Assembly (NCBI RefSeq): GCF_019443985.1
Contig: NZ_CP049303.1
Span: 1,054,001-1,118,000, forward strand
Reading direction: 5' to 3'
DNA from: Liquorilactobacillus hordei DSM 19519
Lineage (GTDB): Bacteria; Bacillota; Bacilli; Lactobacillales; Lactobacillaceae
Length of the DNA stretch: 64,000 bases
Below, piece by piece: positions 24,089-59,712 of the stretch. Each line of letters starts with the position of its first letter. The first letter of the stretch is position 1. Both the position numbers and the translations under genes were made by a program. The notes beneath the pieces are model-generated. The model was not told the origin of the DNA, did no database searches, and was given only the letters and a program-made list of their open reading frames with translations.

Positions 24089-25213
24089 TTATGCTCGTGG
24101 ATAAGAGTGTTCTAGACGAGCATTATTTTTAAGTTCTTTAATATCAGTCACTCCAGCAAGAAGCATTGTATTTAATAGTTCAGTACGAAGTTGTTCTAAA
24201 ACAGATGTCACACCCCTAGCGCCGCCAAAGTGAAGACCATAAAGTGGGGCACGACCAACAGCAACTAAATCGGCTCCAAGAGCAAGAGCTTTGAAAACGT
24301 GCTGTCCACGTCTGATACCACTATCAAAAACAATTGGAACCCGTTTATTTACTGCTTCGACAATTTCTGGAAGAGCTTTAATAGTTGAACGAATGCCATC
24401 TAGTTGACGTCCTCCTGTATTTGAAATCCAGATACCGTCTGCGCCATTTTCAATCGCTCGAATTGCATCTGCACCAGACTGAATACCTTTGACCAGAACA
24501 GGTAAACCAGTTTGTTCTTTAATCTTAGCGATTTCCTCTGGATTAATATCCCTTTTACGATTATTAACTTTTAAAATATCAAGGCCCGATGGATATTCAG
24601 GAAATGCAGCAAGTTGACGAAATGGTAAATCAGAATCAAAATCAAAATGATTACGAATATCGCGTTCTCTTCGACCAAAACTTGCTCCAAATACGCCAAC
24701 TACGATAGCTTTTGCTCCTTGTCGAATAGCTTCATTTAATAGAAAATTATTTAAATTCTGATTTTGATCAAAGCTAAATTGATAAAACCAGGGAGCAGCA
24801 GACTCTGCTTCATGAATTGACTTTAATAATTCATTGCTAAATGTCGAAACTGTCATTAAACTGCCAGCATCAAATGTTCCTTTAAGTGTTCCTAATTCTG
24901 CGGTTGAATGTACTAAACCATGAGCCGCACTTGGTGAAACAATAATAGGTGTCTTTAACTTTATTCCAAAAATTTCTGTAGCAGTATTTCCCCGACTTTC
25001 ATCAAGTCCACGGATAACACTTGGTACAATTTCCCAATTATCAAAATCACTAATATTATGCTGGAGTGTGTACTCGGAACCAGCACCGCCAATAATAAAA
25101 TCAGCTTCCTTTTTATGATTAACTGCACTCATTGATTTTTCAAATTCTTTTTCTAAATCAGGAATATTAATAATTTCAAGTTCTTTTTCAATTGAGTTTG
25201 CATGATATGACAT
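24089..25213 (-). CDS. FMN-dependent alpha-hydroxyacid oxidase-like protein with altered active site
   Basis: A 374-residue TIM-barrel protein of the lactate oxidase/glycolate oxidase family. FMN-binding parts are clear: SPSAAHGLVHSTAELGT, LPVLVKGIQSGADA, DSGIRRGQHVFKALALGADLVAVGR. By eye alignment to lactate oxidase, catalytic residues differ. The His of SNHG is Thr (ISNTGGRQLDG), the Asp of the TADS strand is lost (VVGVFGASFGRRERD), the Tyr of WFQIY is Ser (FYQFSF), and the Tyr of the N-terminal YIAGA segment is Ile (DFIIGGAG). The following Arg is kept. The ATG at 25213 follows AAAGGAGTGG. A Met-type T-box precedes it. I infer a changed reaction; ordinary lactate oxidation is doubtful. Confidence 0.88.
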   Translation of the reverse strand: MSYHANSIEKELEIINIPDLEKEFEKSMSAVNHKKEADFIIGGAGSEYTLQHNISDFDNWEIVPSVIRGLDESRGNTATEIFGIKLKTPIIVSPSAAHGLVHSTAELGTLKGTFDAGSLMTVSTFSNELLKSIHEAESAAPWFYQFSFDQNQNLNNFLLNEAIRQGAKAIVVGVFGASFGRRERDIRNHFDFDSDLPFRQLAAFPEYPSGLDILKVNNRKRDINPEEIAKIKEQTGLPVLVKGIQSGADAIRAIENGADGIWISNTGGRQLDGIRSTIKALPEIVEAVNKRVPIVFDSGIRRGQHVFKALALGADLVAVGRAPLYGLHFGGARGVTSVLEQLRTELLNTMLLAGVTDIKELKNNARLEHSYPRA

Positions 25214-25333
25214 ATTGACCACTCCTTTTAGCTTTAGTCAGTAATTAAATTATTAAGGTTTAAAATGGTTTGGAAAGAAATAGTAGTATGAGATAAAGTG
25301 CAATTTTTTAATAATTTTGTTATTTTTCTGAAA

Positions 25334-25595
25334 TAAAAAAGCGGCTCTTGCTTATGCAAGGGACGCTTTAGCGTGGTACCACCCATATTCGTAACAAAAC
25401 ATATTACCTCAAAGACACAAAAATATCTGTAATTATAACGTATTTCAACGTATCTTGAGCTTGCACTCTTGATATGACTAAGGACTCATCTTCAAAAGTT
25501 CGTTTAATCTGTCCTTGCACCATACGACAGTCGCTTAAATTTACTAGAACAATCTACTCTTTCCATTCATGTCTTAATATTTAAATCACTAATTT
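25334..25595 (-). promoter_or_regulatory. T-box riboswitch (AUG specifier) upstream of the FMN oxidase-like gene
   Basis: On the minus strand GGGTGGTACCACGC (25371-25384) is the T-box. A terminator hairpin with arms AAAGCGTCCCTTGC and GCAAGAGCCGCTTT, followed by a T-run, lies at 25336-25369. A stem AAGGAC/GTCCTT encloses a loop with GAAG-ATG-A; the ATG (25487-25489) aligns with the specifier position, which predicts tRNA-Met. The leader ends about 120 bases before the gene start. Confidence 0.85.
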
Positions 25596-25602
25596 TCTTT
25601 AG

Positions 25603-25631
25603 AGCTTATATTATTAGAAAAAAAATGTCAA
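25603..25631 (-). promoter_or_regulatory. Promoter of the T-box/FMN oxidase-like gene
   Basis: TTGACA on the minus strand (25626-25631) is followed by TATAAG (spacer 15) or TAAGCT (spacer 17). The -35 is consensus; the exact -10 is uncertain. Confidence 0.65.
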
Positions 25632-25778: not shown

Positions 25779-26066
25779 ATAGTTATTAATAATCGAATGA
25801 AAACATCTTGAAGGGTAGAGTACAGAATTGAGTTTCTAAGAGAGCTTCTGGTTGGTGTGAAGAAGCGAAACAAGATATTTTGGAAGATGGACTTGGAATG
25901 GTGGCGGTGATTTTTAAGCCGTTGACGTGGTTGCAGACGTTATACTTGCAAGATTGTTGTATAGTTTTCTAGAGGCTATACTACAGTTTACTGAGGTGAT
26001 AATTTATTATCACGAACTAAGGTGGTACCACGAGTAACTCGTCCTTTTTATAGGACGGGTTTTTTA
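25779..26066 (+). promoter_or_regulatory. Methionine T-box riboswitch of metQNI
   Basis: The T-box AAGGTGGTACCACG is at 26019-26032. The specifier context GGAAG-ATG-GACTTGG puts AUG at 25887-25889. The terminator AACTCGTCCT / AGGACGGGTT with a T-run ends near 26066. Leader features such as the AGAGAG bulge and GGTTGGTG are visible. Confidence 0.93.
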
Positions 26067-26164: not shown

Positions 26165-27007
26165 ATGAAAAAGAAAAATATTATTATTTGGGCAATTGTA
26201 GCCATTGTAGTTATCATTGCAGGATATTTTAGTTTTGGTGGGGGACAAAAGAAAGCTTCAGGTAAGACAGTGACTATCGGAATTATGTCAGGTGTTAAGC
26301 AAGAGGATGCAATCTGGAAGACAGTTGCTAAAACGGCTAAGTCAAAATACAACATTACTTTGAAATTCAAGAAATTTACTGATTACTCACAGCCTAACAA
26401 GGCTTTGACAAATGGTGATGTTGACCTCAATGCCTTCCAACATTATGCATTCTTAAATGCCTGGAACAAGGCTAACAAAACGAATATCGTAGCAATCGGT
26501 AAAACGTTCATTACACCGATTCGTTTATACTCTAACAAGGTAAAAAATGTTAAGGATATTCCAGATGGTGCAACAATTGCAGTACCTAACGATGCAACAA
26601 ATGAGTCAAGAGCTTTGTATCTCTTAAAGAATGCAGGTTTGATCACCTTAAAGAATGATACTGACTTGGCAACAATTAAGACAATTGCTAAGAACCCAAA
26701 GCATTTGCAGATCAAAGAATTAGATGCTAGTCAGACAGCACGTTCATTATCAGATGTAACTGCAGCAGTTATCAATACCAACTATGCACAGGCAGCAAAA
26801 ATTGATTACAAATCTGCAATTTATGTAGAACCAGTTAACAAAGACTCAGAACAATGGATTAATGTTATTGCAGCTAATAAGAAGGACAAGAACAAACAAG
26901 AATACAAAGAAGTTGTTAAGGCTTATCAAACAGAAAAGACTAAACAAGTAATTAAGAAACAATATGGAACAGCAGAAATCACTGCATGGGACATTAAATT
27001 AAAATAA
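26165..27007 (+). CDS. metQ: Methionine ABC transporter substrate-binding protein MetQ, apparently without lipobox
   Basis: A 280-residue NlpA/MetQ-family binding protein: VTIGIMSGVKQEDAIWK, GDVDLNAFQHYAFL, IPDGATIAVPNDATNESRALYLL, ITAWDIKLK. It should capture methionine outside the cell and hand it to MetNI. The N-terminus is a hydrophobic helix (about residues 5-23) followed by FGGG, but there is no cysteine anywhere in the protein, so it cannot be a standard lipoprotein. It is more likely anchored by an uncleaved helix. It is first in metQNI after a Met T-box. Confidence 0.93.
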   Translation: MKKKNIIIWAIVAIVVIIAGYFSFGGGQKKASGKTVTIGIMSGVKQEDAIWKTVAKTAKSKYNITLKFKKFTDYSQPNKALTNGDVDLNAFQHYAFLNAWNKANKTNIVAIGKTFITPIRLYSNKVKNVKDIPDGATIAVPNDATNESRALYLLKNAGLITLKNDTDLATIKTIAKNPKHLQIKELDASQTARSLSDVTAAVINTNYAQAAKIDYKSAIYVEPVNKDSEQWINVIAANKKDKNKQEYKEVVKAYQTEKTKQVIKKQYGTAEITAWDIKLK

Positions 27008-27041
27008 TTACATTCGTTCGTAAGTAGGAGGCTAAGAATAT

Positions 27042-28121
27042 ATGGCTGTTGAAGCGATTAGATTAGAAAAGGTAAGTGTTACATTCACGCAAAAAAACAA
27101 GAAAGTTGATGCCGTTAAAGATGTAACCCTGCATGTTGAAAAAGGTGATATATACGGAATTGTGGGCTATTCAGGTGCAGGTAAGTCAACTTTAGTTCGT
27201 GTAATCAACTTGCTACAGCGTCCTACTTCCGGAAAAGTTGAAGTCAATGGTGAAACTTTGTATGAAAAAGATAGTTCTGGCGAGAAGATCATTAGTGACA
27301 AAAAGTTGCGTGAAAAAAGACGAAAAATAGGAATGATTTTCCAACACTTCAATCTGCTTAATGAACAGACTGTAATACAGAATGTTGCTTTTGCTTTAAA
27401 ACACAGTAATTTGAAAGAAAAGAATATTTTAGAAAAATCAAAGAAGCTACTGGAACTTGTTGACTTAAGTGACAAGGCAGATGTGTATCCAGCACAGCTT
27501 TCAGGGGGACAACAACAACGTGTTGCGATTGCGAGAGCTCTGGCAAACGATCCAGATATTTTGATTTCAGATGAGGGAACTTCTGCACTTGATCCAAAAA
27601 ATACTATTCAAATTCTTGATTTATTAAAAGAAATCAATGAGAAACTAGGGTTAACGGTTGTTTTAATTACACACGAGATGGACGCCGTTAAGCGAATTGC
27701 TAATAAAATAGCGGTTATGGAAGAAGGCCAAATTATTGAACGTGGTGACCTAATTTCAATCTTTACTGATGCTAAGGAGAAGCTGACACGCGAGTTTTTG
27801 GGTGGTGGTTCTGCAAAGGCGCTTGCAACTTTACAAGAATATGAACTTGGAAAGCTAGCTGAGGATGAACGATTGGTACAGCTCATTTATATGGGTTCAA
27901 AGGTTAGCGAACCAATTTTGGTTAAGCTCTATCGTGATTTTAATGTAGAGGCCAATATTATTTATAGTAATATTGAAGTTTTACGTGGGACCCCCATTGG
28001 AACACTTTTTGTTATTTTGAAGGGTAATAATGATAGTCGTAATAAAGCAATTACTTATTTAAAAGAACAAGGAGTTATTATCAAGGCTGTTAAAGAACAG
28101 GATGTGAAGAAGAATGGCTGA
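27042..28121 (+). CDS. metN: Methionine ABC transporter ATP-binding protein
   Basis: The 359-residue ATPase shows Walker A GYSGAGKSTLVR (about residues 43-54), the Q-loop MIFQHFNLL, signature LSGGQQQRVAIARAL, Walker B ILISDEGTSALDP and the H-loop ITHEMD. A C-terminal NIL domain of about 90 residues binds methionine and trans-inhibits transport in the family. The ATG follows GGAGG. The gene overlaps metI by 8 bases. Confidence 0.96.
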   Translation: MAVEAIRLEKVSVTFTQKNKKVDAVKDVTLHVEKGDIYGIVGYSGAGKSTLVRVINLLQRPTSGKVEVNGETLYEKDSSGEKIISDKKLREKRRKIGMIFQHFNLLNEQTVIQNVAFALKHSNLKEKNILEKSKKLLELVDLSDKADVYPAQLSGGQQQRVAIARALANDPDILISDEGTSALDPKNTIQILDLLKEINEKLGLTVVLITHEMDAVKRIANKIAVMEEGQIIERGDLISIFTDAKEKLTREFLGGGSAKALATLQEYELGKLAEDERLVQLIYMGSKVSEPILVKLYRDFNVEANIIYSNIEVLRGTPIGTLFVILKGNNDSRNKAITYLKEQGVIIKAVKEQDVKKNG

Positions 28122-28815
28122 TTTTTTTGCAAAATATTTGCCTAACGTTGTGTCTCAAGGATGGAGCGGTGATGGTGGCTGGTTGACTGCAATTGGCGAA
28201 ACCTTTTATATGATTTTTTGGCCAGCAGTTTTTGGCGGCTTACTTGGATTATCGTTTGGAATTGGGTTAGTCTTAACCGACTCAGATGGAATTTTGCCAA
28301 ATAAAACATTCTTTAGTATTTTTGACAAGATTGTTTCTTTCTTCAGAGCTATTCCTTTTATCATCTTACTGGCACTTATAGCTCCTGTAACCCATTTTCT
28401 TGTTGGAACACAAATTGGAACTCTTGGTGCCTTGGTTCCTTTATCATTAGGATTATTTCCATTTTATGCACGTCAAGTCCAAGTTGCTTTGAAAAGTGTT
28501 GATCATGGAATTATCGAAGCAGCTCAATCGATAGGTGCAACTTTTTGGGATTTGATTTTTGAAGTTTATCTTAGGGAAGCACGTTCCGAACTGATTCGGG
28601 TTACTACTGTAACGATGATTAGTTTGGTTGGTTTAACAGCGATGGCCGGTGCAGTTGGGGCTGGTGGACTTGGTAATATGGCAATTGCCTATGGTTATGG
28701 GCGCTTTGCAAATGATATTACATTTATAGCCACATTTTTGGTATTGGTAATTGTTTTGGCTATTCAGTTGTTAGGTGATTTTTTAGCCAAAGTCTTCAAT
28801 CATAAATCAGTTTAA
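28114..28815 (+). CDS. metI: Methionine ABC transporter permease
   Basis: A 233-residue inner-membrane permease with five predicted hydrophobic segments and the coupling motif EAAQSIGATFWDLIFEVYLREA. FRAIPFIILLALIAP and GAVGAGGLGNMAI are typical of MetI. The start overlaps metN, so stoichiometric synthesis is likely. A terminator follows. This transporter permease is unrelated to the biosynthetic MetI-type enzyme at 57438. Confidence 0.96.
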   Translation: MADFFAKYLPNVVSQGWSGDGGWLTAIGETFYMIFWPAVFGGLLGLSFGIGLVLTDSDGILPNKTFFSIFDKIVSFFRAIPFIILLALIAPVTHFLVGTQIGTLGALVPLSLGLFPFYARQVQVALKSVDHGIIEAAQSIGATFWDLIFEVYLREARSELIRVTTVTMISLVGLTAMAGAVGAGGLGNMAIAYGYGRFANDITFIATFLVLVIVLAIQLLGDFLAKVFNHKSV

Positions 28816-59435: not shown

Positions 59436-59712
59436 TAAAAAAATCCCGCAGTCTAAAAAAAGACTGCGGGACGATTCATCGTGGTACCACCCGGTTTTAG
59501 CTAAAAAGCCCTCAAACGTACAAAATGGATTCTATACGTGAACACTGTAACGGGTGTACCCGTGCAAGATTTACTTAAAATATAAAAGCTCACCTTACCT
59601 AAACTCCAAGACCATTTTCGTATTTTTGCAATAACCGAATCTCAGCATAATCGGCTTTCTGTGATATTACTCAAAAAACTACTTATCTTTTCAACGTTAA
59701 TTATTATCAATT
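59436..59712 (-). promoter_or_regulatory. Methionine T-box riboswitch of metA-metI-metC
   Basis: On the minus strand the T-box CGGGTGGTACCACG is at 59480-59493. The specifier context CGAAA-ATG-GTCTTGGAG gives AUG at 59613-59615. The terminator stem TCCCGCAGTCT / AGACTGCGGGA with a T-run is at 59444-59471. Confidence 0.94.

Follow-up and report, generated by a model that had tools for sequence, protein, structure and literature searches.

In L. paracasei, according to the available text of PMC6004538, methionine-specific T-box leaders (RF00230) lie at metE-metF, metQ and yxjH-luxS and control methionine synthesis and transport. The leader described here is of the same kind and carries the same ATG specifier, but the gene under its control encodes a flavoprotein rather than a protein of methionine synthesis or transport. 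In the literature that we searched (accessible article text, including PMC2494555, PMC6004538, PMC3766115 and PMC7039449), no methionine T-box before an FMN_dh gene is reported. The closest described relatives of the flavoprotein are L-lactate oxidase and the FMN-dependent alpha-hydroxy-acid oxidases (PF01070; chains 7f22 and 2du2). For lactate oxidase, the accessible part of PMC7039449 describes contacts of the product carboxylate with Tyr40, Arg181, His265 and Arg268 and of the keto group with Tyr146, Tyr215 and His265, the last of which acts as the base.

The locus lies in a stretch of 64,000 nucleotides from Liquorilactobacillus hordei DSM 19519, here called the window, whose positions are used below. 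On the minus strand the promoter-like element, the specifier, the T-box sequence, the terminator, the Shine-Dalgarno sequence and the flavoprotein gene follow one another in this order, and the divergent metQNI genes with their own leader lie on the plus strand:

25605..25631, minus strand, promoter-like element TTGACA-N15-TATAAG, read directly
25356..25579, minus strand, T-box leader, covariance match to RF00230 (84.5 bits, E 1.5e-18)
25487..25489, minus strand, specifier ATG within GAAG-ATG-A, from the covariance alignment; kept in L051 and L052 (L. mali)
25372..25383, minus strand, T-box sequence GGTGGTACCACG, with UGGU at 25378-25381, complementary to the ACCA of a tRNA with A73
about 25335..25369, minus strand, intrinsic terminator found by folding, overlapping the 3' side of the antiterminator
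ahead of the flavoprotein ATG, minus strand, Shine-Dalgarno sequence AAAAGGAG
24089..25213, minus strand, FMN_dh-family flavoprotein gene, 374 aa from ATG (PF01070, E 5.2e-97)
25799..26049, plus strand, divergent metQNI T-box leader (112.7 bits), specifier ATG at 25887-25889
26165..28815, plus strand, metQ-, metN- and metI-like methionine ABC transporter genes (Pfam NlpA lipoprotein, ABC_tran plus NIL, and BPD_transp_1, over cut-off)

The T-box leader before the FMN_dh gene is real. A cmscan search of 1.3 kb aligned it to the complete RF00230 model (positions 1-219) with the score listed above, and the whole-genome search returned it with E = 6.8e-19. Its score falls below the Rfam gathering score of 93, and a search at the gathering level did not return it; 19 of the 32 T-boxes found in the genome score below 93, including the alaS leader with 76.3 bits. 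When folded, the terminator piece 25330-25366 reached -10.6 kcal/mol (z -3.68 versus shuffles). The Stem I stretch 25450-25585 folded alone was shuffle-like (z 0.16), as was the antiterminator stretch (z 1.08), which the covariance alignment does pair. A simple promoter/terminator scan listed neither the promoter-like element nor the terminator of this leader; the scan requires a spacer of 16-18 nt, and the promoter has N15. The original prediction of a complete leader before the flavoprotein gene is thus borne out by the covariance match together with the promoter-like element, the AUG, the UGGU and the terminator, all of which are in place, whereas the AAGGAC/GTCCTT stem that it included does not occur in the pairing of the covariance model. 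Here GGACAG pairs with an upstream CTGTC and TCC goes into the lower stem; moreover, both L. mali leaders have ATCCGG in place of GTCCTT, which breaks the proposed stem. The L. mali copies retain the terminator stem with altered bases, and across the three assemblies the specifier and T-box elements are conserved, in contrast to the diverged sequence beyond the terminator.

The covariance alignment fixes the specifier as ATG, the codon that had been read initially, and as no other codon, in the same register as in the metE-like, metQ and other AUG leaders. In leaders of the same genome the specifier follows the rule GAA-N-codon-A, as seen before genes which, recognizing the sequences by eye, we take to be tyrS (TAC), pheS (TTC), trpS (TGG) and hisZ (CAC); the leaders of the presumed leuS (CTC) and thrS (ACC) fit the rule with a shorter or altered GAA, and GAA is not kept in every leader. 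On the tRNA side, A73 was read by eye at the end of four CAT-anticodon tRNA genes, one of which may encode tRNA-Ile, and the UGGU of the flavoprotein leader matches this A73, in contrast to the UGGC of the trpS leader. A GAT (Asp) register was ruled out, given that both tRNA-Asp genes read by eye carry G73, at odds with UGGU, and that the covariance register is ATG. The AUG, or methionine, specificity of the leader can therefore be regarded as well supported at the sequence level, and the specifier is, as had been predicted, the same as that of the divergent metQNI leader.

The encoded protein matches PF01070 over its full length and scores 308.6 bits against TIGR02708 (L-lactate oxidase), whose equivalog cut-off is 645.5. 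Residues were compared, in lactate oxidase numbering, between the clade formed by this protein with its orthologs (four sequences) and a table of 69 non-clade matches above 200 bits collected in family and genus searches, fragments and weaker matches being left out. Outside the clade, Tyr40, Tyr146 and His265 are invariant (69/69), Thr172 and Asp174 are present in all 68 readable homologs, and Tyr215 is present in 66 of 69, with Phe in the other three. All four clade members carry Y40F, Y146S, T172G, D174F and H265T and a gap at Tyr215, so that the substrate-binding tyrosines 40, 146 and 215 of lactate oxidase have become Phe, Ser and a gap, and the catalytic His of the SNHGGRQ motif is Thr in every ortholog. 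What the clade shares with lactate oxidase, besides the full-length family match, are the equivalents of both carboxylate-binding arginines, Arg181 and Arg268, and K241, S122, Q144, S263, D296, R300 and R320, all kept in four of four and presumably serving the flavin site. The exception in this otherwise kept site is Thr172, which we take to be a flavin contact; it is Gly in the clade, and for this reason FMN binding is not assured. In a midpoint-rooted tree of 37 rows the clade is monophyletic with 100/100 support, and its stem measures 2.35 changes per column. Within it dN/dS is 0.05-0.12 (four orthologs, six pairs), values that are rough because dS exceeds 1 in five of the six pairs; together with the open frames in all four orthologs they rule out a pseudogene. 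An AlphaFold model built from seven sequences had a mean pLDDT of 59 and was set aside as too poor. A canonical SNHG paralog is encoded in the same genome at G000:C3:73495-74562, and no T-box was found with it.

With these catalytic and substrate-binding residues replaced, oxidation of L-2-hydroxy acids by the known mechanism is unlikely. We consider it likely instead that the locus combines an AUG T-box leader sensing uncharged tRNA-Met with a neofunctionalised FMN protein of rebuilt pocket, which is probably not an L-2-hydroxy-acid oxidase. Uncharged tRNA-Met would be sensed through the AUG specifier and the UGGU bulge of a transcription-attenuating leader, presumably by antitermination, and methionine shortage would switch on the flavoprotein gene and the divergent metQNI together. 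The product would have the fold of an FMN-dependent alpha-hydroxy-acid oxidase whose substrate pocket has lost the His base, the Tyr residues and the Asp and Thr next to them; with most flavin-site residues and both arginines retained, it may bind FMN and a carboxylate ligand. Our best guess is a redox reaction that proceeds without a His base on a carboxylate related to methionine, for example an amino or imino acid, whose product could be 4-methylthio-2-oxobutanoate and could pass to a T-box-controlled transaminase. The job of the protein in methionine-starved cells is probably new. In a bolder form, which we advance only tentatively, a lactate-oxidase scaffold would have been rebuilt in a small Liquorilactobacillus group into an FMN enzyme of new methionine-salvage chemistry. 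It would act on a methionine derivative (amino, imino or sulfur-containing) without help from a His base, and would be induced by uncharged tRNA-Met along with MetQNI, the importer of its substrate. Since the T-box tells which amino acid this uncharacterised flavoprotein serves, a direct test becomes possible of what this member of a well-studied family, with its remodelled active site, does.

Three other explanations were weighed; their probabilities and that of the main reading overlap and do not sum to one. The replacement of the named catalytic residues, the two arginines excepted, the retention of most of the flavin site and the purifying selection acting on the clade gene would also fit a pseudoenzyme that binds flavin but has lost catalysis and serves in regulation, as a scaffold or in flavin storage. 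We regard this as possible but doubtful, since the replacing residues are identical in four of four orthologs and both substrate arginines persist, a pattern suggestive of a pocket that continues to bind a ligand.

The second alternative is a true L-2-hydroxy-acid oxidase acting on a methionine hydroxy analogue by an altered mechanism. In the genome of the window, 13 of the 32 T-boxes were read as AUG leaders, L078 and L079 being identical copies; L075, with GTA in the specifier place of the covariance alignment, was excluded from this count. The genes behind them look like metQNI, the FMN gene, metE, metA with a gamma-synthase, a cystathionine lyase, two oppA genes, OsmC, an amidase and transaminase pair, a GlcD-like FAD oxidase and an Ldh_2-like dehydrogenase; one of the remaining leaders precedes a transposase-like ORF and one short ORFs only. 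The OsmC, amidase, transaminase (in part), GlcD and Ldh_2 identities come from profile matches, all of whose best hits are below the curated cut-offs, and the other regulon genes were recognized by sequence; for the metQNI-like proteins the best NCBIfam matches are MetQ, MetN and MetI, likewise below their curated cut-offs. The leader of the GlcD-like gene (L017, G000:C3:48331-48552, minus strand; TIGR00387 341.5 bits, cut-off 567.9) has counterparts at five of ten genus orthologs, the own genome counted (L017, L088-L091), and that of the Ldh_2-like gene (L079, G000:C3:2211555-2211773, minus strand; best NCBIfam match L-sulfolactate dehydrogenase, below cut-off) at six of seven, counted in the same way (L079, L105-L109). 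The pair behind L008 (G000:C3:654653-654881, plus strand), an amidase-like gene and a transaminase-like one whose best match, PRK08068, stays under its cut-off, looks like a step from keto-methionine to methionine. A further AUG T-box (94.9 bits) lies in the window at 59464-59703 on the minus strand, before the metA-like and gamma-synthase-like genes.

These leaders suggest a broader AUG T-box regulon in the genus, with several putative enzymes of 2-hydroxy or 2-oxo acids. AUG T-boxes before the GlcD-like, Ldh_2-like and amidase-transaminase genes make a salvage of methionine from its keto and hydroxy forms plausible, although the FMN protein need not be its oxidase. A hydroxy-acid oxidase would suit this setting, as the flavoprotein is an FMN_dh family member with both substrate-carboxylate arginines retained, and the other genes, within the limits of their below-cut-off identities, fit a route from hydroxy- or keto-methionine to methionine. 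We nevertheless hold this alternative to be improbable, given that all four orthologs lack the base His265 as well as Tyr40, Tyr146 and Tyr215 and that the genomes G122 and G152 carry other parts of the regulon without the flavoprotein gene. Of the role first proposed, in methionine or in a 2-hydroxy/2-oxo analogue pathway, the place in the AUG regulon stands for the window genome and two L. mali assemblies, while 2-hydroxy-acid oxidation has been weakened. A flavoprotein does lie under an AUG leader; this is less unusual than was supposed, with 13 AUG leaders in the genome and two others of them before the GlcD-like and Ldh_2-like genes.

The gene has a narrow distribution, being found in 4 of 14 genus genomes, namely that of the window, two L. 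mali assemblies and G096, and at all four loci it is divergent from metQNI. Three of these orthologous loci, the window and both L. mali assemblies, have a T-box before the gene (84.5, 77.6 and 73.8 bits). The pairing of T-box and gene is thus narrow and, among the 14 genus genomes, is found outside the window genome in L. mali only. No T-box was found at the G096 locus, where a promoter-like element, also seen at L051 and L052, is followed directly by the ORF at a distance of about 45 bases or less; in the close relative G122, the metQ leader has alaS next to it, and the clade gene is absent. No non-clade match exceeded 320 bits in 151 family genomes, and all matches in 794 plasmid records were below 60% identity. 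The SNTGGRQ pattern, searched in 395 order genomes (a sample without the other three carriers), matched only the window itself and G321; the latter was taken as chance, its three nearby ORFs of at least 100 aa not being FMN_dh-like by eye. Gammaproteobacterial matches (L053-L060) were rejected as clade members, the His being kept in eight of eight, and the short matches L061 and L062 were left out. No T-box was found with six canonical genus paralogs, nor a T-box motif, by simple pattern, with 27 family homologs.

Judged from these loci, the methionine link of the flavoprotein gene is real but recent or unstable, because the T-box is present at three of four and absent in G096, which fits a gain in the line of the window genome and L. 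mali as well as a loss in G096. The G096 ortholog, with its like promoter, indicates that the gene can do without the link, and its locus offers a natural comparison without the T-box switch. As for the origin of the leader, when it was compared with the other 31 of the genome it matched the oppA-like AUG leader L081 best (z 12.6, 30 simple shuffles each), and the metQ leader L004 reaches a z of only 4.6, which rules out a recent inverted copy of the latter. The leader was thus perhaps recruited from another methionine leader. Capture of a T-box by a gene with no methionine role, as a by-product of the adjoining metQNI, could draw on the G096 ortholog and on the many T-box duplications in Firmicutes noted in the available text of PMC3766115, but is rather improbable in view of this distance from the metQ leader and of the specifier and T-box elements kept in three assemblies despite the diverged stretch behind them.

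Several further T-boxes were observed. A second copy of the Ldh_2-type leader lies at G000:C3:1977-2195, and the gene copy behind it matches only in pieces. The first ORF downstream of the AUG leader L015 (G000:C3:2078731-2078956, minus strand) is IS200-type transposase-like, and L083 and L075 share an identical 3'-end sequence followed by short ORFs only, as though an insertion element had interrupted them. Three more T-boxes (L005, L012 and L018), whose specifiers are Ile-like or unclear, precede a hydratase-like and two ketopantoate-reductase-like genes, as identified by eye. Finally, L115 (G155:C40:41162-42205, minus strand) is a diverged Ldh_2-like paralog of 50% identity with one in-frame stop, upstream of which a simple pattern search found a T-box motif together with GAAGATGG.
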